From Aptenodytes patagonicus (Eukaryota > Chordata > Aves > Sphenisciformes > Spheniscidae), in assembly GCF_965638725.1 (NCBI RefSeq), contig NC_134961.1:7036641-7100640 (forward strand): DNA of 64,000 nt, in the 5' to 3' direction. Position numbers and translations under genes: made by a program. This document shows, piece by piece, positions 10,701-59,100 of this stretch (within the stretch, counting starts at the first letter, position 1; each line of letters begins with the position of its first letter). The notes under the pieces are model-generated. The model was not told where the DNA came from. It did no database searches and saw only the letters and a program-made list of their open reading frames with translations.

Positions 10701-13002
10701 GGCTCCCGGGGGAGCAGCCCCAGGGGCAGCTCGGCTGAGCGGCGACGGCGCGATCAGACGATATGGAGGCCGCCGGAGCCAGACTGGCCGGATCCTGACC
10801 CGCTCCCTTTGTCTGAGGCGGCCGAGAGGCGCACCGGGGCGGCTTTTCGCACCCGCCGGCGTAGCCACCGTCACCCTCCTGGCTCCCGCTCCCCTCCAAA
10901 GGGCCACCTTCAGGAGCGTGCCAGCATCCCCAGCCCATCCAGGGAGTCCCAGCCCAGCTCGGGGGCAAGTTAGTGGATGCTTGTGGGTCCCGGTCCCTGT
11001 GGCAGCCCCACGCAGGGTCACCCCGAGTCTCCCCAGGGGTGATCCCCACGCTGCACCGGAGGATGGTGGCAGCAGCTGGGACAGAAGCAGCGCGGGGACG
11101 CCCTGGTGATGCTTTGGGCCAGGGACCAATATGACGACAACAGCAAAGACACCCCCCCCCCCCCCGCCCCCAGCGCTCCCCCAAAAGCGCCCTCCCAGCT
11201 CCCCAGCGCCCCGCGCGCAGCCCTTCCTCCCGCCCGGCAGCGGGGCCGCATCCGGCAGGCTGTGCCGGCCCGGCCAAGGCGCGCTCACGGCCAAATGACA
11301 GCAAATCCCAGGCAGATCTGGAGCTCGGGAGGAAAAACAACCGTTAATGGGAGGCAGGTGGGCAGTCGGCAGCCCCAGCGCCGGGCCGGACGGAGCAGGG
11401 CGGCTCCCCAGCCCCCCAGGACGTCCCGCCGGGCACAGACCCCCCAGGGCGCCTGCTCAGGCAGGATCCGACCGTGGGACCATCCTCTCCAAAATCGGGG
11501 GGCTCCGGCTGGGCTGAGCCTTGTGCTCCGGCCAGACCCTTGCCCGCAGCGGTGAGTCTGGAGGGACAGGGCTGTGCCGGGGCGGTGGGTGTTGGCTCTG
11601 ACCCGCCCCCCCCTCCACGGCACACCCCAACACCTCCCAGCCCGGCCCCGCTGTGGGGCAATCCGGGGGTCCCCCCCGGCGCATGCCACAGTCCCCACTG
11701 TGAGTTTGGGCAAGCGCCCGACGCCGGTGCCAGGATGCTGCCGAAGGACGGACGGACAGACACGGCCTGGGCTCAGCCAGGGGCCGCTGCCGGCGCACTC
11801 CTGCCCCCAGGGCCAGGGCAGGAGGATGGTCCCAACGCCGCGGAGCACCCGGGACAAGGTGCACCAAGCCCCAGGCAGGCACCCGCCGACACACCCCGTC
11901 CTGCCGACGCGCCGAGGGAAGGGTCCGGCACCCGAGGGCTCACAGGGTCGTTTGACGAGCCCGGGGGGGGGGGGCCTCCCCATCCCACATGAGGGGGCCG
12001 AGTGGGAAACCTCCCCGGTGCCGGTGGGGGGGCCAAGCTCTGGGCTTCTGACACCCCCAGGTCCCCCAGAGACACATCTTTGGGGTGCAAGGGGATCCCA
12101 AGTCCCCAACCCCAGGGGTCATTGCCACAGCCCTTCCTGCTGACATGGGGGGTTCAGCCCCCCCATATCCCACCCCTGGGGGGGCTGGGGTGAGCGGCTG
12201 AGCCCCCCCATGGGGCATGGGGGTTGCAGCCGGGGATGCTCCGGGGCTGGATGGGGTGGGGGGCCGCGGGGCACCCCGAAACGCCGTTGCCAGTGAGCGA
12301 GGCCTGAGGGAAACCACAGGGCAGGAGCAGTGCGGGAACCGGGGCACTCGGGGGAGCCCCCGCCCCGGTGGGGCTGGGGAAGGGGGACGTCACGCCTGCG
12401 GTGGGGGGGGTCGCATCCTGCCCCAGGGTGCCCCTCGGGTGCGGGAGGGGGTGCCCCCTGAGGCGGGGGTGTCCGCTGCACCCCAGGGAGGAGCGCAGCC
12501 CCCCAGCCTGCCCCCCCGGGGGGCATCCTGCATCTGGGGGTCCCGGTAGCCACCCGCGGGGGGTGCATCCCCCCCTCGGGGCGCCCGCCTCGCCTGCACC
12601 CGGGGTGCGCCCGCACCCGGAGGCGTCCCCTCCCCGGGCCCAGACCTGCTCCCCGGGCAGCCGGGGGTCCCGGTGCGTGGATCCCCACCGCGGCCGCCCC
12701 CCCGGGGCTGCACTCCGGTCGCGGGGGGGGGGGGGCGGTGCCCCGCGCACTGCTCCCCTCCCCGGGGGCGGCATCCCGCTCGGGGGGTGCCGGAGCCTGC
12801 GCCACCGGGGGGACTGCCCGCACCCCGCTCCCGGGGCCCCGCCCGACACCCCCGGTGGCTCCCGATGGTCGTGCCCCCCCCACCCCGGGGTCCGTCGCCG
12901 CGCCCCCCGCCCCGGACGCACCTTGCTGAAGGCGAAGAGGTCGTGCCGGAGGCGGTCGCGGTGCGGGTCGGCACCCTGCCGCCGGAACCGAAACTTCATC
13001 AT
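1712..13002 (-). CDS. LLGL1: LLGL scribble cell polarity complex component 1 (lethal giant larvae homolog 1)
   Basis: Cortical WD40 scaffold that opposes aPKC/PAR6 and sets basolateral identity with Scribble and Dlg. Twenty-two coding exons: 12922-13002, 9975-10072, 7711-7792, 7493-7623, 6921-7079, 6680-6842, 6446-6581, 6303-6357, 5982-6139, 5677-5894, 5497-5564, 5017-5167, 4502-4606, 3992-4284, 3747-3900, 3514-3667, 3129-3412, 2573-2837, 2338-2452, 2135-2229, 1899-2022, 1712-1790. Joined they give 3168 nt, 1055 aa plus TGA (human about 1064). The start is a double ATG ([10 protein letters not shown]) and the C-terminus is GILIK; both ends match vertebrate LLGL1. The LLGL block ([17 protein letters not shown], exon 9), the aPKC-target basic segment (exon 15) and the acidic tail ([16 protein letters not shown]) are conserved. 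LLGL1 rather than LLGL2 is supported by synteny with ALKBH5. The exon 2 donor (GTATCC) is weak but is fixed by phase and by the KLYGAPG junction. Confidence 0.97.
3747..3900 (-). other. LLGL1: LLGL1 exon 15: aPKC-regulated membrane-binding segment
   Basis: This exon encodes [20 protein letters not shown], the basic serine-rich stretch which in the Lgl family binds acidic phospholipids and is released from the membrane when aPKC phosphorylates its serines. The serines and surrounding lysine/arginine residues are intact, so regulation by aPKC is expected to be the same. Role from family knowledge; residues read directly. Confidence 0.9.
5933..5959. repeat. (CA)n microsatellite in an LLGL1 intron
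   Basis: About 13 CA/AC dinucleotide units lie in the 87-bp intron between LLGL1 exons 9 and 10, so the microsatellite fills about a third of a very small intron. Confidence 0.95.
7793..9974 (-). other. LLGL1: LLGL1 intron 2
   Basis: A 2.2-kb intron bounded by GTATCC at its 5' end and CCCCCCCAG at its 3' end. It is GC-rich with many open frames on both strands; none resembles a known protein and I see no repeat family or RNA gene. Confidence 0.8.
10073..12921 (-). other. LLGL1: LLGL1 intron 1
   Basis: A 2.85-kb first intron, GC-rich next to the promoter, with several C/G homopolymers. No exon, RNA gene or recognisable transposon was found. First-intron enhancers are possible but nothing specific is visible. 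Confidence 0.8.
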
Positions 13003-13322
13003 GGTGGGGCCGGTGGCGGCGCGGTACCGGGCGGGGCGGGAGGGGCCGGCGATCCCGGGGCCGGTACCGGGGCGGGCGGTGCCGGTGCCGCTCCCGGGGC
13101 GGGCGGTGCCGGTCCCGGCGGGGGGCGGTGCCGGTGCGGGTCCCGGTCCCGGTCCCGGTCCCGGTACGGGTCCCGGTGCGCGCGCCGAGCGCCGAGCGCC
13201 GCGCGCCGAGCCCGGGCAGGCACCGCCGCGGCGGGGCGGAGCGCGGCCCTGACGGACAGCCCTCGCCGCCAATCACCGCACGACCGCGCGCACCGCGCGG
13301 CGCGGCCCCTCCCATCGGCGTT

Positions 13323-13332
13323 GCGCATGCGC
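13323..13332. promoter_or_regulatory. NRF1 binding motif
   Basis: GCGCATGCGC, the perfect palindromic core bound by NRF1, located about 320 bp upstream of the LLGL1 ATG inside the CpG island. Confidence 0.7.
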
Positions 13333-13348
13333 CGCCGCGGGGGACGAC

Positions 13349-13361
13349 GGGATTTGTAGTT
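13349..13361 (-). promoter_or_regulatory. ZNF143/THAP11-type promoter element
   Basis: On the minus strand the sequence is AACTACAAATCCC, close to the ACTACAATTCCC core of the ZNF143-associated promoter element. It sits 17 bp from the NRF1 palindrome, a pairing seen in TATA-less promoters. Confidence 0.55.
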
Positions 13362-13372
13362 CCGCAGCACAG

Positions 13373-13389
13373 GCGCCCTCTGGGGGCGC
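13373..13389. promoter_or_regulatory. CTCF-like motif near the LLGL1 promoter
   Basis: GCGCCCTCTGGGGGCGC resembles the CTCF core (GCGCCCCCTGGTGGC) with two mismatches and is nearly palindromic. It is at the boundary between the CpG island and AT-rich flank. Motif match only. Confidence 0.4.
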
Positions 13390-13400
13390 TTTATTTATTT

Positions 13401-14619
13401 TTATATCTATATTTTTTTTAACCTCCTTCTTTCGTTTTTTCTCTCCCGGGTGGTGGCGGTGAGGAGGGGGACAGCGAGGGCACCCCCAGTCCGCTCATCC
13501 CGGTCCCAGGGCCCCCGCAACCATGTGGTGCCCTGGATTCAGGGCCTCATCCTGGCCCGTGGGCCCCACAGCCATGGGGTGCCTCAACGACATGGCGGCA
13601 CGCTGGCTACCGGGGCCCTGTGCCGGCAGGGTGCTGAGCACGGCCCCGCTCGGCGCATCCGCGCCGAGCGGGGCCGTGCTCAGCACCCTGCCGGCTCCCG
13701 CCATTAGTATTCGGGCCCCGTCCCCGGCTGGCGACCGATTGTTCCCGCCATGGCGCCAGGCACGGCCGTGCCCAACTCCCCCACGGCATCAGCCCAGGGT
13801 TGGGAGGGAGGCCGGGGGGGGGGGGGGGGGGGCACCCTGCCCTGCCACCCCGGTTCGGGGTGAGTCACCCCGGGCAGGGCAGGGCTTCCCCTCCCTGCTG
13901 ACTAACCCCGGCCCCGGGGAGATGCCGTGTTGGGGTGACGCAGCCTTTGGGGTGGAAGAACGCCCTCGGGGGGGGACGGGGTCCGTCGCCCTGATGCCGC
14001 AGCGATGGGCTCCCAGATGGACAGAGGGAAGGGGGTCCGACCCCACGGGCAGCCCTGGGGCACGAGGGTGGGTGATGGAGAGGACAGCGCCAGACCGGGC
14101 AGGAGCTCACGGTGGAGGAAGAGGAGGAGGAAGGCCCCCATGCGAGGCCAACAGACCCCATCCAGCCATGCCATCCCCTCTTCGGCACCGCACAACCCGT
14201 CCACCTGCCCACCGCCATCTCCCTCTCGCAGGAGGAAGGCGCAGGGCAGGGAGGGCGAGGGGCTCCACACGAGGCCGAAGCACAGGGTACAGCTTCCCCG
14301 GGCATGCTGGGGCCATTTAGGGACCAGGCAGGGGCTGCGGCAGGCCTGGGCGGTGGGGCAGGGTGGGAGCTGCAGGGGGACAGCGTCCACATTTGCTCCC
14401 CGGCCCCCCGGGGATGGAGAGCGGGAGGAGGAGGGCAGCAAGCCCCGTCTCCGCTTTCTAGGGCAGCGCAGGAGGGACAGACGATGCGTTTGGCCGCCCC
14501 GTCCCCAGGGAGCCGGAGACTCCCTTTATTTAGAAGCAGTTCCCCGCTCCCCGCAACCTCGTTTCTCCCGGCGGGGAAGCGAGGCACACATCCCAGCCGC
14601 CGGCATCACCACACAGGCA
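13401..14619. other. intergenic region between LLGL1 and ALKBH5
   Basis: Sequence between the LLGL1 promoter and the ALKBH5 poly(A) site. It begins with a T-rich patch, then carries the perfect inverted repeat at 13622-13695 and a G-run near 13817-13832. No convincing exon or RNA gene is visible; the open frames are typical of GC-rich DNA. Confidence 0.6.
13622..13695. repeat. perfect 35-bp inverted repeat with 4-nt loop
   Basis: Arms 13622-13656 and 13661-13695 are exact reverse complements, with loop ATCC at 13657-13660. Arms are about 77% GC and stop sharply at both ends (T opposite T outside). Either strand, if transcribed, would form an extremely stable hairpin. It lies about 620 bp upstream of the LLGL1 start codon. 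It belongs to no transposon family I recognise. Confidence 0.95.
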
Positions 14620-14640: not shown

Positions 14641-14646
14641 TTTATT
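14641..14646 (-). promoter_or_regulatory. ALKBH5: distal poly(A) signal, ALKBH5
   Basis: TTTATT on the plus strand is AATAAA on the minus strand, the last canonical signal before GC-rich intergenic DNA begins. Cleavage would fall near 14620-14630. Confidence 0.6.
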
Positions 14647-16348
14647 CAATTAATGCAGCAATCTATACAAGGAAAAAAAAAAAATAATAATAATGAAACC
14701 ATGAAATTCCAAACCCTGACAGTGAAGAACCAAATTCTTCCTAAGAATCAACCAGAATTAAAAGATTCCCCCCACGTCAGACTGTACATAAAATAATCTC
14801 TGCCCCATTTACAGCGTTTCACACAGTACTTCTCGTATCTCAAACTTCAGAACTGTACAACTTTGTTACAAACCACGCTTTTTCCTAGGAAAAGCTTACG
14901 GAAAAAAATATTGCCACTTTCTTTTTTATTTTTTTATTTTTATTCGTAACAAAACAAAACAAAACAAATTAGAATCTTTAAAAAACAAAATTAAAGTCAG
15001 CCAGAACTTGTAAGTGTGGGCAAGGGGCGCGGGAAGGAGCAGAGACGCGCTTCTCGGCCGAACATTTCTCCTCCCGACCGGGAAAGGGAACACTTCTGGC
15101 AGATAAAAGACTATTTGCCACTGGCAGGGGTCCGGACGCCGGCCTTCGCCCCCCCCCCCCCCCCCCCCCCGAGCCCTCCTCAAAGCATGGCAGCCATTTT
15201 GACCCGTGGGGCTCAGACCACGTAGCGGCGAGCGCTAGGTGCTAACAGCGCCGAAACCCGAAGGGCCAAGCTCTTGTCCTGGCAGACATCGGCTCACGCC
15301 GGTGCCGGCTCACCCCGAGAGCGGGTCGGCAGCTCCGCGCCCCAGCAACCTCCCCCCCCCGCCCCCCCCCGACCTCCTCGGGATGAGCCAAGCCTTTTGG
15401 GATGGGGATCGCAACTCCCGAGCGTCACAGCTCTCGTCCGACTAACGGCTGGATGAGAGTTCAGCAGGTGTGGAGCCAGATGCGGCAAAGCCGGGCGCCC
15501 CTGCTGCAGGCAGCCTGCCCGCCGAGCCCAGCCGGGCAGGGACCTGCCGGCAGAGCGACAGCCCCTCCCTAGGCCAGCTCACCTCTTACTGCCGGCAAAC
15601 AGCCCTTCCTTCTCCTCCTACGGACGTATCGAGCCCACGCGACTGACGCAAGAGCTTTAGTTCGATCGACGAGTCTTCTCGAGACACGGGTAACAGTAAC
15701 AAACCCCAGTTCCTACTGCTCCTTGCAGAAAAGCGGGGACAAACCCCACCTTCCTCCCCCTTCCTTAGGAAAGGCAGCTCTCATGGTCTGGGCTGTGGGT
15801 CTGGGCGCGTGGGGTCGTCACGCTGGACGTAGCCTTATTCCCAGTTTCGGGCTGAGCAGGTTACACGAACGACATGCTGCGGGTGGATGGAAAGGAGGTC
15901 GGACCGCACGACCGGACTAGACAGACGCGACAAAGCCGATGGGGTCAGGCCTGTGCATGAGCTCGCCCCGTGGAGAAGATGGGGAGAAGTTTTGCCTCCG
16001 AATTGGAGCTCACCACCCTCCATCCTCCGCACCAGACCCATGCCACCAGCCTGATGCAGCCGGCGACAGAGAACAGGTACGGGCATCACCGGTATTTTTG
16101 AGCCACAGTTTTACCAGACAGGTTACAGTAAGGGATCGAGACATCTGGATCCACATGAAAAATGTGTCTTCTGGTTTCGAATCAAGGTATCACTCCGATG
16201 TTGTTCAGTGCAAAAGAGTTAAAAAACCATGTTATCTACACATATACATCCGTGTGTATAGAAAACGTCTGTACAAGTGGGGAAGATGGCTTGCCTACAC
16301 GCTGGGGACTCCTTGCCCGAGAGATGCTACGGGTCAGACCGGTTGCGT

Positions 16349-19275: not shown

Positions 19276-34330
<15,055 letters not shown>

Positions 34331-52000: not shown

Positions 52001-55000
52001 CCCCTACCCTGGGGACAGCAAACGCTGCCTGTCTTCAGGCGACATCGCCTTTTCCCCGCCGAGGTTTGTCCCCAAAAGTGTCCCCATGCGCATCCCACCC
52101 CAGAGCCGAGGGGCAGGGACAGCCTGGCAGTGGGGCTGGGGGCCTGGTTGGGCATCCCTGGGGCGGGGGGGGGACACAGGGGGTGGGAGCCGGCTGCGCG
52201 CAGGCGTTGCTCAGCATTACTTACTCCTCCAGAAAGATTTCCACAAATTTTCCAAACCTACTGGAATTGTTATTCCTCACGGTTTTGGCGTTACCGAAGG
52301 ATTCCAGCAAGGGGGTCGCCTCCAGGATCTGCCGTGGCAATGGGGAGAGCCGCAGGGTCAGCCCGGCCACCCCGACACGCCACGGCCAGGGGCTGTCCTC
52401 TCCTGGGACGCCCCCCTTGTCACCCTGCCACCCCTGCCACCCTCCCTGCCACCTCCTGCCCCCTGCAGACACCCATGGGTGCCAAAATTTGAAGTGTGCA
52501 CAGCGGCCAGGCTGCGTGAGGATGCAGGAGAGCGCAAGGACCCCATGCACGTGCATGCACCGAGCTCCGGCTTTCCATCCCCGCTGTCCCCCCGCAGCTG
52601 GGGTGACGTGGCAGAGATGCCACCACGATGCTCGGTCCCTTTGAACCGTCCCAGCCCACGTGTCCCCCCCGGTACCTCTATCTGCCGTGGTCCGGGTGGA
52701 AGCATGGGGACAAGGAGAGAGCGGTGGAGCCATGAGCAGGGGGTGGAGGAGAGTGCGGGGAGGTGGGACAAGGGGACAGGGATGTCCCCAGGGCAGCACC
52801 CTACCTGCGGGGCAGTGCTGCGTTTCTGGCTGACGGCTGCCAGGTAGCGCAGGATCAGCTTGGTGGCTTCGGTCTTCCCCGAGCCGCTCTCCCCACTGAA
52901 ACGCAGAGGGGAGGCACGGCCGGGGCCGTCACCAGCCGAGCAGGCGGCCAGGGGGTGCACCCATCCCAAACGCACCCAGCACCCTACCCGCAGAGGCACT
53001 CATGGGCCCCGGGGCAGGGCCAGGCTGGCGGCAGCGTCCTGGCGACTGGCAATTAGGGCAGCGCTGATTAGGGGCCACCCCGGGGAGTCATGCCAGGGGA
53101 CGGCCATGTCCCACCTGATGATGATACACTGGTTGTGTTTGGCATCCATCACTTTGGAGTAGGCGACGTTCGCGATGGCAAAGAGGTGCCTGGGGAGGGG
53201 GGGGGGAAGCAGAGGTGGGGGGTGCGTCACAGCGTCGCCCCGGCACAGGGACCCCCCGCTGCACCCCGAGCATCCCCGCGCATGGACACAGCTGCTCTAG
53301 CACCCTGCAACTGAGGGTCCTCGCGGGCCTGGGACCAGCCGGGGGCTGCTGTAGGACCCAGGGGTGGGTGACGGCGGGTAGGGGTGCCCCTGTGCCCGCA
53401 GGGCGTTCGAGGACACCCCAGTACTCACGGCGGGTTCTCGCCCAGTGCTCTGCCTTCGTACTGCAGCACCTGCTCCGTCCCGTAGATGTTGTAGAGCTGG
53501 TACGGGTTCACCGACACCAGGATGCTGCCGATGTAGGTCTGCGGGAGAGCGAGGTTTGGGGCTGCAAGCACTCGGAGAGCCATGACCCCCCCAAAGACCC
53601 CACGCCTGGGGTGTCCGGGGGATGTTGTGCGCCCCTAATCTTACGTAGATGAGCTGGCGCTCGAACCGCGTCCGGATGTTGCTCAGCACCGCGGCTTCTT
53701 GGAGGTCCCTGGAGCAGAGCAGAGGCTGCGTTAGGGGGTGGCGGGGGGACAGGAGATGTCTGCCGTCCCCGAGCGTATCCCCACCATCCCCAGCCCCGGG
53801 AGGCTGGAGCAGACCCTGTGCCGGGATGGGATGGGGAGCAGCGGGGGCCGTCAGGTGCGGGAGGGGTTGCAGTCCCGTTGGCCCCCACGGCGCTGGGTCA
53901 CGGCGGGTGGCGAAGGGGATGGGGACACTCACTCCAGCTGGGTCATGTCCTCCAGCCCGTCCTCCTCCTGCGGCTCCTGGTACCGCACGATGGGCAGGCT
54001 GCACAGCGACTGCATCTGCGTGGAGCAATCCAGCCCGGCTCCGTCACAGCAGGGCCACGTGGGCACCCTCCGGCGTCCCACCAGGTCACGGCCACTGCCC
54101 CAAAGCCACTATCTGTGACCCCAAACCAGGGAGCCCACAGCCAGCGATGGCAGGGACCCCAAGCAAGCACCCCATGGCCTTGAAACAGGTCCCCCGGCGA
54201 GAGTGTCACAGGTCAGGGGAGAGCAGTGGTGCTGGAAATGGGGACATGGGGCCACCAAGGTGTCCTTGGGGACCATCCCAGGAAAGGCTATTCCTGGTGA
54301 GCCCGGGTCCCGCTCGCCGTGGGCAGGCAGGAACAGGTGGAGGCGGCTGTGCCACCCCCACCGCAACACCCCGCAGTTCACCCAACCCCCCCCCACGGGG
54401 ACTGCAAGGGGTGGGTGACAGAGACCCCCGGGCAGGGTGGCACCTCCAGGGGAGATGATGGAAGGGGGCTGTGGTGGGGGCCGAGCTGTGGGGCTGGGGG
54501 CTGCTCCCCACGGCCGTGCCCCACAGCCACGCGCAGAGGTGACGCGGGGTGGGTGGCACGGAGGAGCCTGCGCTGGCGGCCGGCCAGGCGGCGGGCAGGA
54601 AAGCGGACACCCACGGGGTCGGCGTGCCACCCGCGCCCGTCCCGGCAGGAGATCGGGTCTCAGCATTTCCATACGCGAGAGTCAAGTGTCCCCGAGGGGG
54701 GCCGCACATGGGGGAGGGGGAGAAAAACAGGCAATGATCGCCCCCCTCCAGCCTGCTCCCTGTGGCAGGACCCCCGCCAGCACCCAGTGCACCCATAGCC
54801 ACTTACCCCCCCAACCCTGGGCGCTGCAAACCCCCCGGCACTGGTGGCTTCGTGCCCCGGTGAGCCGGCAGCCATCTCAACATGCCGCCCCATTCCAGGT
54901 CCCTCCGGCTGCCGGCTCGCCCCCCCCCCCCCGGCTCCATCCCACCGCCGGCACCCGCAGCGGGCTCCCCGCCGGTGTTACCTTGCTACGCCAGGGCTGC

Positions 55001-58000
55001 TTGGTGCCCAGGTACCCGTCCGCCCAGGGGTGCCTGTCCCGCCAGCCGCCCGCCGGCGAGCGCCGGCTCAGGTATTGAGCGATGTCGGCTCCCCGCTGGC
55101 TCCCCCACCACCGGCCGCGCTGGGTGGGCTGCCGGGGAGGACCCTGCTCGGCTGTCCAGGCATCGGGCATCTCCCGCACCCGCACGACGTGCTGCGTGGA
55201 CCAGTGCTGCTTGTACATGCGGGACGCCCGCCGGAAGGAGCCCAACCTCTGCACCTGCGGCGTCACCACCGCGTAGCGCCCCGTGCCCTCCTCCCCAGCC
55301 GCCCCGTCGCCCTCGACGGCCTCCACTGGCCCCAGGGCATGAGTGCCGCGGCGGGGGGCCACCGGTGAGCCAGGGGCTCGGCCACGGGGTGCTGGGAAAG
55401 TGGCGCGACGCTGCGGTGAGGGGCTCCGGTCACTGCGAGGAGAGGAGGGGAGGATGGGGTGTCCGGCATCAGCCCAGCCCCGGCGCCCCGTCGGTGGGCT
55501 CGGTGATCTGCGGGTGTTCCCATCCCGCCGGGATGGGCGCCGGGGCAAGGAGGGTGAGCGGGAGGAGGGACGGCGGGCAGGCGGTGGGGATGGAGGGGCT
55601 TCGGCGGGGGCCATGCTCCCCACGAGCAGTGATGCCAGGGACTGCCCCACCGAGCGCCCCGGGGAGGAACTGCGGCCCCCCGCTTCAGCCGGAGGCAGCC
55701 TCGCTGGCGGGGAGCGGGGGGCCATCCCGGCAAGGGGCTGCCCGATGCGCTGGATGAAGGTTTTGGGGGTGCCGGGAGCAGGGCTGGATGGGGGGGGCAC
55801 CCCGGCGAGACCCCGCGCGGCACCCTGCCAGGGTGGCAGCTCCTCGTCCCAGGAGGGGCAGGGGGGGCCAAGGCGGCGGCTGCCAGGGCGGGGGGTCGGT
55901 GCCAGGAAGGGGGTCCTCTGCAGCGGCTTCACAGCCTTGGTGGGGGGCTCGGGAAGCCGGGGCCAGGCCTGGGGGAGCGGCAGCCCTGGGGGGCTGCTCC
56001 GCCGTGACGGCTGTGGGGACAGGGGTCTCCCTGACCCTGCCACGGGCACCCCCAAATGCCTCCCCCCCGGCCCCGGAGAGCAGGGGGCGGCCGGGGGCGG
56101 GGCGGGAGGTTTGGGGCTGAACCCCCGGAGGCTGGCCCCGAGGGAGGGGGATCGCTGTGGCCCCTCGCCCCGCACGCTGCCGGGGCGCTGCTGGGCCAGC
56201 GGCGATGGGAAGCGCCCAGGGTTGGCAAAGGGGTTACGGAGCGACAGCCGCCGCGCAGCCCCCGGCTCTTGGGGAGGGGGCTGCCCCCAGGGCCCCACTG
56301 GTGGGGAAGGGTCCCTGGCCAGAGATGCTCGTAGCAGGGGGTCCCAGCCCCCCGAGTCGGCGCTTTCCATCCCCGCCAGCCTGTGGCCAGAGCGTCTGTA
56401 GGAGGGCTGGGGGGTGCGGGGGTTCCGAAATCCCCCCGCACCCCGAGGTGGGCAGCCAGGGGGCTGTGAGAGGGAGCGCTGGAGGAACTGCCCCAGGGGG
56501 CTCCCGCATGCACGCGCTGCCGAAACCCGGCGCCCCGGGGATGCCGTGGGGCCGGGGGCTGCCGGTGGCGGCGGCGGCGGCTCGTACTCATCGTAGTCGT
56601 CCTCGTCACGGGTGGTGGGCAGGTGGGGGGATGGGAGGAGGGGGACGTCCAGGCGGTCCCTGCCGAAAAGCTTGACCTGGGGCCGGGGGAAGAGCCTGAA
56701 TTTCCTATTGAGGGAGAGCTTGGAGGAGAGCGTCTCCCGCATGTCCCGGAGCGAGGAGGCGCTGAGGATGGAGAAAGGGTACTCCCTGTCCTCCTCCTCC
56801 TCTTCCTCCCACTCCTCGGGCTCCTCGGCCTCGGTGATCTCCTCCAGGGCCAGGGCATAGGGGTTGCAGGAGGACTGGGCGTGCGGCGCCCACCCCGCCT
56901 CGCTGTACTGGATGCGATGCTCGGGGTATTCGCCCCCCGGGTAGCCCCCGCTGAGGGGCTCCCCAAAGTCCCCCCCGTAGCCGAAGGGCCCCGCCGGCTC
57001 CTCGCCGTACTCCAGGTCGTTGCCATAAGGGTCACAGAGGGTGAGGGGGGACCCGCAGCTGAACGGTCCCTCATCCTCGAGCTCCGTGTAGCCGTAGGGG
57101 TGCCCCGGTGGGTCACCCTCCTCCCAAAACCCCCCATAGAAGCCGTCCTCCTCCTCTACCTCATAGCCGGGGTAGTCGGCGTAGGGGGTTGGCACCGCAT
57201 CCTCGAAGCCGTACCCTGCTGGGTAGGCTGGGGTTTGGATGTAGCCTTCCTCCTCCTCGGTGTAGCCACGCCAGGGGCTGTAGGCTCCATCCTCCTTGGT
57301 GTAGCCACGCTGGGAGCCGTAGGCTCCATCCTCCTCCTTGGCGTAGCCACGCCGGGGGCCGTAGGCTCCATCCTCCTCCTTGGCGTAGCCACGCCGGGGG
57401 CCGTAGGCTCCATCCTCCTCCTTGGCATAGCCACGCCGGGGGCCATGGGCTCCATCCTCCTCCTTGGTGTAGCCACGCCGGTGACCGTAGGCTCCATCCT
57501 CTTCCTTGGCCCACCCGTAGCGCGGCACCGGCGGCTCCACAGGAGCGTGCTGGGAGCGCCGCTGGGACGGACGCTGCACCGTGCTGCCATGCCTCTCCTG
57601 GCCGTGCCGCGCAGCGCCGGAGGCCGACAGCCTGCTGCCGCCGGGGATCCGCTTCATGTTGGCCCGGTGCCTGAGGATCTCGTCTTCTGCGGGGAACGGC
57701 AGCTTCCTGGCACCGATACGGGAGAGCCACGCTGTGTCAGCCGCCCGGCTGCCCCCCACCAGCCGCCCGCGCCGGGAGAGCACCTTCCTGGCCAGCCAGC
57801 CCGTGGCGGCGGCCGCTTTGCTCAGCACCTGCGCCCGCGGCTTGAATTTCCTTTCCGGGCGCCGGCGGAAGAGGGACGCACCATCCTCGGCCACCTGCCC
57901 GCCCCGCCGCAGCAGCAGGAAGGACGGCTTCGCCGGCGGGGCGCTGCCGGCCGCCTCCTTCCTCTTCTTGCCCACGTGCTTGAAACGGACCACCAGGTTG

Positions 58001-58740
58001 GAGGTGGACTTGAGCACCGCCTTGTTCTTCTTCTTCTTCCTCCTCTTGGTGCTTTGCTTCTGCAGCCCCCAGAAGAAGCGGGACGTGTTCTTGAACTGCC
58101 CCTTCTTGGGCTGACGCAACCCCAGTTTCTTGAAGCCCAGGAAGAGCTTTGAGGTGCTGCGGAGGCTCCGCTTCACCCGGGCCTTCGGCACCGCCACCTC
58201 CTCCTCCTTGGCTGGGCCGGGCTCCGCAGATGCTTTGGGTTCGTCCTTGGCCTCCGCGCCCTTGGCCCCTTTCTTCTTCTTGGCATTGTCAGCCGCCAGC
58301 CCCATCACCAGCTTGGAGGTGCCCTTCAGGTTCTTCTTGGCTGGCGCGGCATTGCTCTTGCCCTCCTCCGCCTCTGGCTCCAGCTGCACCTTCTTTCCCC
58401 GGCCCGGCTTCTTTGCCACCACCCCCTTGAGCACCCCCTTCTTCTCCTTCTCCTTCCCCTTCTTGGGCTCCGCCACAGCCGCCTCCTCCTTGTCCTTCTC
58501 CTCCTTCCCCTTCCCCTTCTTGGGCTCCGCCACAGCCGCCTCCTCCTCGTCCTTCTTCTCCTCCTCCTCCACCACCTCTGTCTCCTCGTTCTCCTCTGCC
58601 TTCAGCAGCTCTGCATCCGAAGTCTCCTCCGACTCGCTGGGCACCTCCTTCTTGCCCTTCTTGCCATCTTTCCCTTTCCCTTTGCCCCCCTTCCCCTTGG
58701 CCTCCACATCCTTTTTGGGCTCCCCCTTCTTGCCGACCAT
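34626..58740 (-). CDS. MYO15A: myosin XVA (unconventional myosin-15)
   Basis: Actin motor that carries whirlin, EPS8 and partners to the tips of inner-ear hair-cell stereocilia; loss causes DFNB3 deafness in people. Sixty-four coding exons joined by phase give 10545 nt, 3514 aa (human 3530). Order: N-terminal extension 1-1253; motor about 1254-1935; IQ neck about 1950-2025; MyTH4 about 2080-2240; a FERM domain split by a proline-rich insert (about 2240-2837); SH3 about 2838-2930; second MyTH4 about 3010-3180; second FERM about 3189-3510; C-terminal ITLL, the whirlin PDZ ligand. Exon coordinates are given with the domain entries. The start is the ATG at 58738-58740 ([18 protein letters not shown] context); an in-frame GTG and an out-of-frame ATG lie just upstream. 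No frameshift or stop was found. Confidence 0.97.
37483..39062 (-). other. MYO15A: MYO15A second MyTH4 domain exons
   Basis: Exons 38929-39062, 38784-38850, 38556-38628, 38255-38328, 38070-38152, 37722-37852 and 37483-37577. Blocks read include [90 protein letters not shown]. All match the canonical MyTH4 pattern. Confidence 0.92.
39135..40098 (-). other. MYO15A: MYO15A SH3 domain exons
   Basis: Exons 39987-40098, 39762-39839 and 39135-39340. The SH3 fold is read in [44 protein letters not shown]-type (here [14 protein letters not shown]), [20 protein letters not shown]. An alanine/valine-rich linker ([16 protein letters not shown]) follows, as in mammals. Confidence 0.9.
40379..41945 (-). 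other. MYO15A: MYO15A first FERM domain, F2/F3 part
   Basis: Exons 41824-41945, 41635-41694, 41306-41381, 40806-40921, 40604-40722 and 40379-40520. Conserved blocks are [74 protein letters not shown] and [11 protein letters not shown]. They complete the FERM fold begun by the F1 exons on the far side of the insert. Confidence 0.88.
42201..43834 (-). other. MYO15A: MYO15A proline-rich insert within the first FERM domain
   Basis: Eight short exons: 43740-43834, 43535-43626, 43315-43441, 43087-43148, 42883-42946, 42632-42770, 42384-42474, 42201-42297. They encode about 255 residues rich in proline, alanine and glutamine, poorly conserved except for [53 protein letters not shown] and VKPVTSS, which align to mammalian MYO15A. 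This is the least certain part of the model, though phases close exactly. Confidence 0.75.
43990..44741 (-). other. MYO15A: MYO15A first FERM domain, F1 part
   Basis: Exons 44563-44741 (3' part), 44367-44439 and 43990-44181. They encode [29 protein letters not shown] and [19 protein letters not shown], the ubiquitin-like F1 lobe. The last exon ends at a GTAGGT donor; reading on would meet a TAG straight away, which fixes this boundary. Confidence 0.85.
44563..46655 (-). other. MYO15A: MYO15A first MyTH4 domain exons
   Basis: Exons 46574-46655, 46354-46484 (or up to 46502), 45521-45616, 45195-45430 and 44563-44741. Signature blocks are [59 protein letters not shown] and KYLLKFVSDYAF. MyTH4 domains bind microtubules or partner peptides together with the following FERM lobes. 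The acceptor of the second exon is duplicated, see findings. Confidence 0.9.
44768..45145. repeat. minisatellite in a MYO15A intron
   Basis: At least six imperfect units sharing GCACGTGTGCCAGGCTGGCC and GGAGGGACCT, starting near 44791, 44867, 44923, 45001, 45066 and 45122, so unit spacing is 56-78 bp. It fills most of the intron between exons 45195-45430 and 44563-44741. The core contains the E-box palindrome CACGTG in five copies (45122 lacks it). Confidence 0.9.
46841..47506 (-). other. MYO15A: MYO15A neck: IQ motifs
   Basis: Exons 47331-47506, 47177-47261 and 46841-46894. They encode the lever arm with about three light-chain/calmodulin-binding IQ-like motifs: [34 protein letters not shown] and a third degenerate one ending [10 protein letters not shown] short charged stretch ([18 protein letters not shown]) follows before the tail. 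Confidence 0.88.
49511..49593 (+). mobile_element. MIR-type SINE fragment
   Basis: GCTCTGCCACCGAGCAGCCA followed by TCTGTGCCTCAGTTTCCCC (about 49517-49578) matches the MIR consensus order (ggctctgccacttactagctgtgtg...ctctgtgcctcagtttcctcatc). An old copy on the plus strand in the intron between motor exons 49857-49988 and 49285-49410. Confidence 0.7.
52676..52681 (-). other. MYO15A: MYO15A 6-nt microexon
   Basis: ATAGAG (Ile-Glu) flanked by GGCAG and GTACCG. It is required to bridge QKRSTAPQ (exon 52805-52895) and [10 protein letters not shown] (exon 52225-52328): human has two residues (Ile-Lys) at the same place. Removing it would keep the frame but delete two residues next to the P-loop helix. 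It sits in a 476-bp gap between its neighbours. Confidence 0.85.
54982..58740 (-). other. MYO15A: MYO15A giant first coding exon: N-terminal extension
   Basis: A single 3759-nt exon (1253 codons), equal to human exon 2, which makes the long isoform needed for stereocilia maintenance. Residues 1 to about 115 are lysine/glutamate-rich. Then come repeated KxTSKL-type motifs (for example [35 protein letters not shown]), the 14-residue tandem repeat, tyrosine/glycine/acidic sequence, the conserved block [20 protein letters not shown], a long proline/serine/arginine-rich stretch, and a final [15 protein letters not shown] block. Both blocks match mammalian MYO15A. The donor GTAACA at 54976-54981 joins PWRSK to MQSL of the motor. 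Confidence 0.93.
57262..57510 (-). repeat. MYO15A: coding tandem repeat, 42 nt / 14 residues, in the MYO15A extension
   Basis: The phrase GTAGCCACGCC recurs on the plus strand at about 57262, 57301, 57343, 57385, 57427 and 57469, a period of exactly 42 nt (39 for the last). The encoded unit is [14 protein letters not shown] with small changes ([26 protein letters not shown]). Copies at 57343 and 57385 are almost identical, showing recent unit duplication. Confidence 0.95.
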
Positions 58741-59100
58741 CCCGGCGGTGGCGGGCACTCATGCTCTGGTAGGGCCCTGGGAGACGATGCCCCGCGCCGG
58801 CGCAAGGCGGCTCCCGGCACACCGTCCGGCTCCCGACCCCGCAGCTTGCCCCAGGGGGGTATTTACCTGCGCCCGGTTTCGGCGAGGCACGTGCCCATGC
58901 GTGGCTCCCTCGGCCGCCGCCGGCCCCCCGCTTGGCATGGCGCTGGGGCAGCGGGACGGCAGCCTCGGCGTGGCCCGGCGGGAGCTGCCTCCTGCCTCCC
59001 ACGGCACCCCGCGAGTTAGGCAGTGTGGTGCTGGCGGCTGGGCTCCGGCTGTAACCCAACCGCCGGGGCTCGCAGGGGCATGAATAATGTAAGGGATGCG
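58741..59100 (-). other. MYO15A: 5' flank or 5' UTR/intron boundary of MYO15A
   Basis: GC-rich sequence directly upstream of the MYO15A start. Possible splice acceptors on the minus strand are CTCCCAG (exon would begin at 58776) and CTACCAG (58765); a donor-like GCAG/GTAAAT is at 58861-58866. In human the 5' exon is non-coding and several kilobases away; here it cannot be located by eye. Confidence 0.4.

Follow-up and report, generated by a model that had tools for sequence, protein, structure and literature searches.

Short-range template switching is a mutation process in which the polymerase leaves its template for a complementary or nascent strand close by, runs backwards along it for a short tract and then resumes on the original template. 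Copied tracts in 1503 gold-standard great-ape events had a median length of 12 nt and reached at most 128 nt; 65.0% of these events lengthened the sequence (PMC7954356, in extract). Template-switch events often yield perfect inverted repeats, and some may be hairpin-mediated (PMC7954356, in extract). For some microRNA hairpins, MIR633 among them, an origin in single events of this type has been inferred, and priming from a loop of the nascent strand has been discussed (PMC8794818, in extract). No title among the matches listed for the template-switch and inverted-repeat literature named a bird.

Here we analyzed a perfect hairpin in a 64-kb stretch of penguin DNA (the window), located in the gap that separates two minus-strand genes, ALKBH5 and LLGL1. 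We consider it likely to be a recent scar of a short-range template switch (fold-back), which is a known type of mutation. The hairpin comprises the following parts:

13622..13656, plus strand: left arm of the perfect hairpin, 35 nt, read from the sequence
13657..13660, plus strand: loop ATCC, 4 nt, read from the sequence
13661..13695, plus strand: right arm, 35 nt, exact reverse complement of the left arm, read from the sequence
13652..13665, plus strand: hairpin centre GGCGC-ATCC-GCGCC, read from the sequence, a putative fold-back seed

The first-pass annotation had reported a perfect, GC-rich 35-nt inverted repeat with an ATCC loop, and its length, loop and coordinates were all exact, with arms that are 100% complementary and have a GC content of 83%. 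Each arm contains 5 CpG. The perfect match ends sharply because the next outer pair is T-T.

The rarity of the hairpin was assessed in the window plus 100 kb on either side (fetched as 20 stretches), a set of 264 kb from one chromosome. This analysis revealed 12 perfect hairpins with arms of at least 12 bp (one of 35, one of 13 and ten of 12 bp), and the 35-bp hairpin was the only perfect one with arms longer than 13 bp and a loop of up to 60 nt. A relaxed scan of the same 264 kb (24-bp arms, up to 3 mismatches, loop up to 12 nt) returned five matches, all of which were registers of this one hairpin. Within the window, the next-longest perfect hairpin (loop up to 60 nt) had 12-bp arms; second-order Markov modelling of the local 2 kb (60 simulations) gave longest arms of 9-12 bp in every run. 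The analytic expectation for arms of at least 35 bp with loops of 0-60 nt, given the local composition, was 9e-12 per window and 1.9e-7 per genome, where the genome, here and in the searches described below, is an assembly of 1.352 Gb in 618 contigs. A chance origin of the hairpin is excluded. Since there is no other such hairpin in the 264 kb, the template-switch reading has no local rate in its support.

We also searched the whole genome for other copies. Allowing up to 3 mismatches, the 35-nt arm was found solely as the two arms of the hairpin, with 0 control matches, and a 121-nt query across the hairpin matched its own locus alone, once per orientation; simple repeats and the most frequent words fall outside this search, whose counts are lower bounds. 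Elsewhere in the 264 kb, no stretch of at least 13 nt matched the arm exactly. As the arm was found at its own two places only, the most likely origin of one arm is a local copy of the other. Inspection of the hairpin flanks by eye revealed no target-site duplication. A dispersed repeat or transposon was rejected on the same lower-bound counts, with the arm and the 121-nt query matching this locus only, and a known RNA family was rejected on 0 matches to Rfam 15 at the gathering score across the whole window. A viral or bacterial origin was rejected on 0 matches to an exact 24-mer of the arm in the viral collection and 0 in the prokaryote collection, a weak test that covers exact matching only. 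The hairpin was absent from the output of a bacterial-type promoter and terminator scan, a type of scan that is not meaningful for this genome. The earlier statement that neither a gene nor a transposon explains the hairpin thus holds as tested with the arm (up to 3 mismatches) and the 121-nt query, and the hairpin is most likely not a gene and not a mobile element.

These data also bear on a sequencing or assembly artefact, in which a fold-back copy would have been introduced by library preparation or consensus polishing in a very GC-rich stretch. The 83% GC of the arms and a 19-base run of G at 13814-13832, about 120 nt away, are consistent with such an error, as is the recovery of a single locus, and thus a single haplotype, from the assembly with the 121-nt query. 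A simple fold-back read would be expected to carry on along the inverted strand. In contrast, the 74-nt palindrome is flanked on either side by sequence that matched no second locus, inside a contig of 20.26 Mb, and the hairpin is the only one of its kind in the surrounding 264 kb. We regard an artefact as unlikely.

The setting of the hairpin is defined by the following features:

12922..13002, minus strand: first coding exon of LLGL1, 27 codons, with the ATG at 13002 and the 3' end set at GT by eye
13322..13332, plus strand: NRF1-like motif TGCGCATGCGC, 1 match in the window against 0.06 expected
13349..13360, minus strand: ZNF143-like motif ACTACAAATCCC, 1 match in the window against 0.03 expected
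13372..13386, minus strand: CTCF-like core motif, 1 match in the window against 0.86 expected by chance, weak alone
14525-14530, minus strand: second AATAAA, taken as a putative ALKBH5 poly(A) signal
14641..14646, minus strand: AATAAA, likely ALKBH5 poly(A) signal
32386..33102, minus strand: first coding exon of ALKBH5, with the ATG at 33102; 32386 is the end of the open frame, and the true exon end is approximate

ALKBH5 is upstream of LLGL1 on the same strand, and both are ordinary vertebrate genes. The hand-joined peptides of LLGL1 exons 1 and 2 match LLGL1 in 8r3y (E 2.7e-18), and the open frame at 32386-33183 matches the RNA demethylase ALKBH5 in the PDB (best E 2.6e-113). The hairpin had been placed upstream of LLGL1, and the minus-strand gene with its ATG at 13002 bears this out: the hairpin is 620-693 nt from the ATG, on the upstream side. 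In the direction of ALKBH5 transcription, it follows the likely poly(A) signals of that gene; three further AATAAA are present near 14925-14944 in the likely ALKBH5 3' UTR. The motifs at 13322-13386, labelled CTCF-, ZNF143- and NRF1-like by the names and consensuses that we presume for them, form a predicted core promoter of LLGL1, and the hairpin is 236 nt upstream of the near edge of this cluster.

Several other features of the region were observed. Between the promoter-like motifs and the hairpin, at 13390-13399 on the minus strand, are two overlapping AATAAA (AATAAATAAA); their use by an ALKBH5 read-through RNA would place the hairpin within an extended ALKBH5 3' UTR. The CTCF-like site is contained in a short inverted repeat at 13371-13391 (9 pairs counting G-T), which is adjoined by an AT-rich tract in sequence that is otherwise about 75% GC. 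Short tandem repeats rich in GC, with periods of 6, 7, 15, 22 and 27, are densely packed at 13010-13211, just upstream of the LLGL1 ATG. Elsewhere in the window, tandem repeats of 42 nt (57248-57510) and 57 nt (58437-58568) both fall inside the bounds of a minus-strand open frame of 1293 aa (54877-58758), which, from the gene order that we assume, is perhaps a large low-complexity exon of MYO15A.

RNA from both strands was folded, as the first-pass annotation had proposed. The segment 13590-13727 gave -112.3 kcal/mol on the plus strand and -114.4 kcal/mol on the minus strand (z about -11), and 0 of 200 shuffles on each strand folded equally well. Such a fold could point to an element kept perfect by selection, either a cruciform or hairpin that regulates LLGL1 or a signal for terminating or processing the ALKBH5 read-through RNA, and would be joined in this by the location 236 nt upstream of the CTCF-, ZNF143- and NRF1-like cluster and past the likely poly(A) signals of ALKBH5. 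However, the extreme energy arises because any long perfect inverted repeat yields such stability, whatever its origin; stability is automatic here and therefore not itself evidence of function, and position is the sole point in favour. The cruciform promoter-upstream element offered previously keeps its proximity to the promoter, and nothing beyond proximity speaks for it. We consider a selected element of either type decidedly unlikely. Searches of the literature on perfect inverted repeats or cruciforms at bird promoters, or on the LLGL1-ALKBH5 promoter in chicken, found none.

The hairpin was also compared with the precursors of small RNAs, since a hairpin-RNA precursor had been among the options raised. 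With the exact spacing of microRNA motifs assumed here, the plus strand carries a UG at its basal junction, and on the minus strand, from which both genes are read, a CNNC begins 7 nt beyond the stem. One motif can suffice, and the 35-bp stem has the stated optimal length of 35 +/- 1 (PMC10954719, in extract). The stem length of this option is thus right, but the 4-nt loop falls short of the optimal >10 (PMC10954719, in extract). In addition, neither strand carries an apical-junction UGU, each strand has part of the motif set only, and there were 0 Rfam matches. A young microRNA or siRNA precursor is extremely unlikely. It is also very unlikely that a single template switch has just made a 35-bp stem in an ALKBH5-LLGL1 read-through RNA that is already cut by Drosha or Dicer; if true, the locus would have only just begun to yield small RNA or to act in RNA processing, before any mismatch had arisen in the stem.

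A short-range template switch is the reading that we prefer. The switch itself, its seed, its template arm and its recency are each proposed from the sequence. The growing DNA end would fold back on the small GGCGC/GCGCC inverted repeat, or the polymerase would switch to the opposite strand, and about 30-35 bases would be copied backwards. The polymerase would then return to its own template, leaving a perfect reverse-complement copy and the 4-nt loop. The centre GGCGC-ATCC-GCGCC is a possible fold-back seed for the nascent 3' end. Arm likelihoods under nine local Markov models differed by no more than 1.2 bits, in both directions, and for this reason do not identify the template arm. An 8-bp outer helix was equalled at 23/340, 64/340 and 121/340 control centres (flanks of 25, 40 and 60 nt, respectively), and is not special as a trace of an older imperfect palindrome. 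The 35-nt tract counts against a template switch in being long compared with the great-ape median of 12 (median absolute deviation 4.5); nevertheless, it fits, because tracts in great apes reach 128 nt and 65.0% of events lengthen the sequence (PMC7954356, in extract). Among the options originally offered, a fold-back origin of recent date fits best, given the perfect arms, the sharp ends, the lack of any other copy found and a length beyond chance.

The perfection of the arms had been taken to need selection or a very recent origin. This stands as an either/or, but selection adds nothing to it: at 2e-9 changes per site per year, a rate assumed rather than measured, 70 paired bases would on average go about 7 million years before one of them changed. 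The 95% upper age bound at this assumed rate is about 21 million years, and it is 43 million years at an assumed 1e-9 and 9 million years at 5e-9. Selection is not required, because youth suffices at the assumed neutral rate. Re-correction of the stem by later switching would weaken the age bound. The hairpin is most likely a neutral mutation scar without function. It represents a clean, apparently undecayed case of one replication error making a long perfect hairpin. Hairpins of this type can be dated by looking at sister species, and they supply the raw material from which new hairpin RNAs can form. For LLGL1 and ALKBH5 themselves, the hairpin brings no new insight unless RNA from it is found.

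Comparison with known systems places the hairpin closest to the short-range template-switch mutations of the four-point model of Loytynoja and Goldman, with which, as far as the extracts of PMC7954356 and PMC8794818 describe them, it shares a perfect local reverse-complement copy of tens of bases, a short spacer and no outside donor found. It differs from those cases in being known from its present sequence alone, while scoring under that model draws on the ancestral one. Template-switch-born microRNA hairpins such as MIR633 share with it a long stem from a single event (PMC8794818, in extract), whereas the loop here is 4 nt and the hairpin is known from sequence alone. The conversion of quasipalindromes to palindromes in bacteria likewise ends in a perfect inverted repeat around a small loop (described in PMC7954356, in extract); in contrast, no older imperfect palindrome around the penguin hairpin stood out significantly against the 340 control centres. 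Finally, the perfect palindromes of nematomorph mitochondria are numerous, reach 284 bp and occur in coding genes (PMC6649704, in extract), whereas the hairpin described here is single and intergenic.
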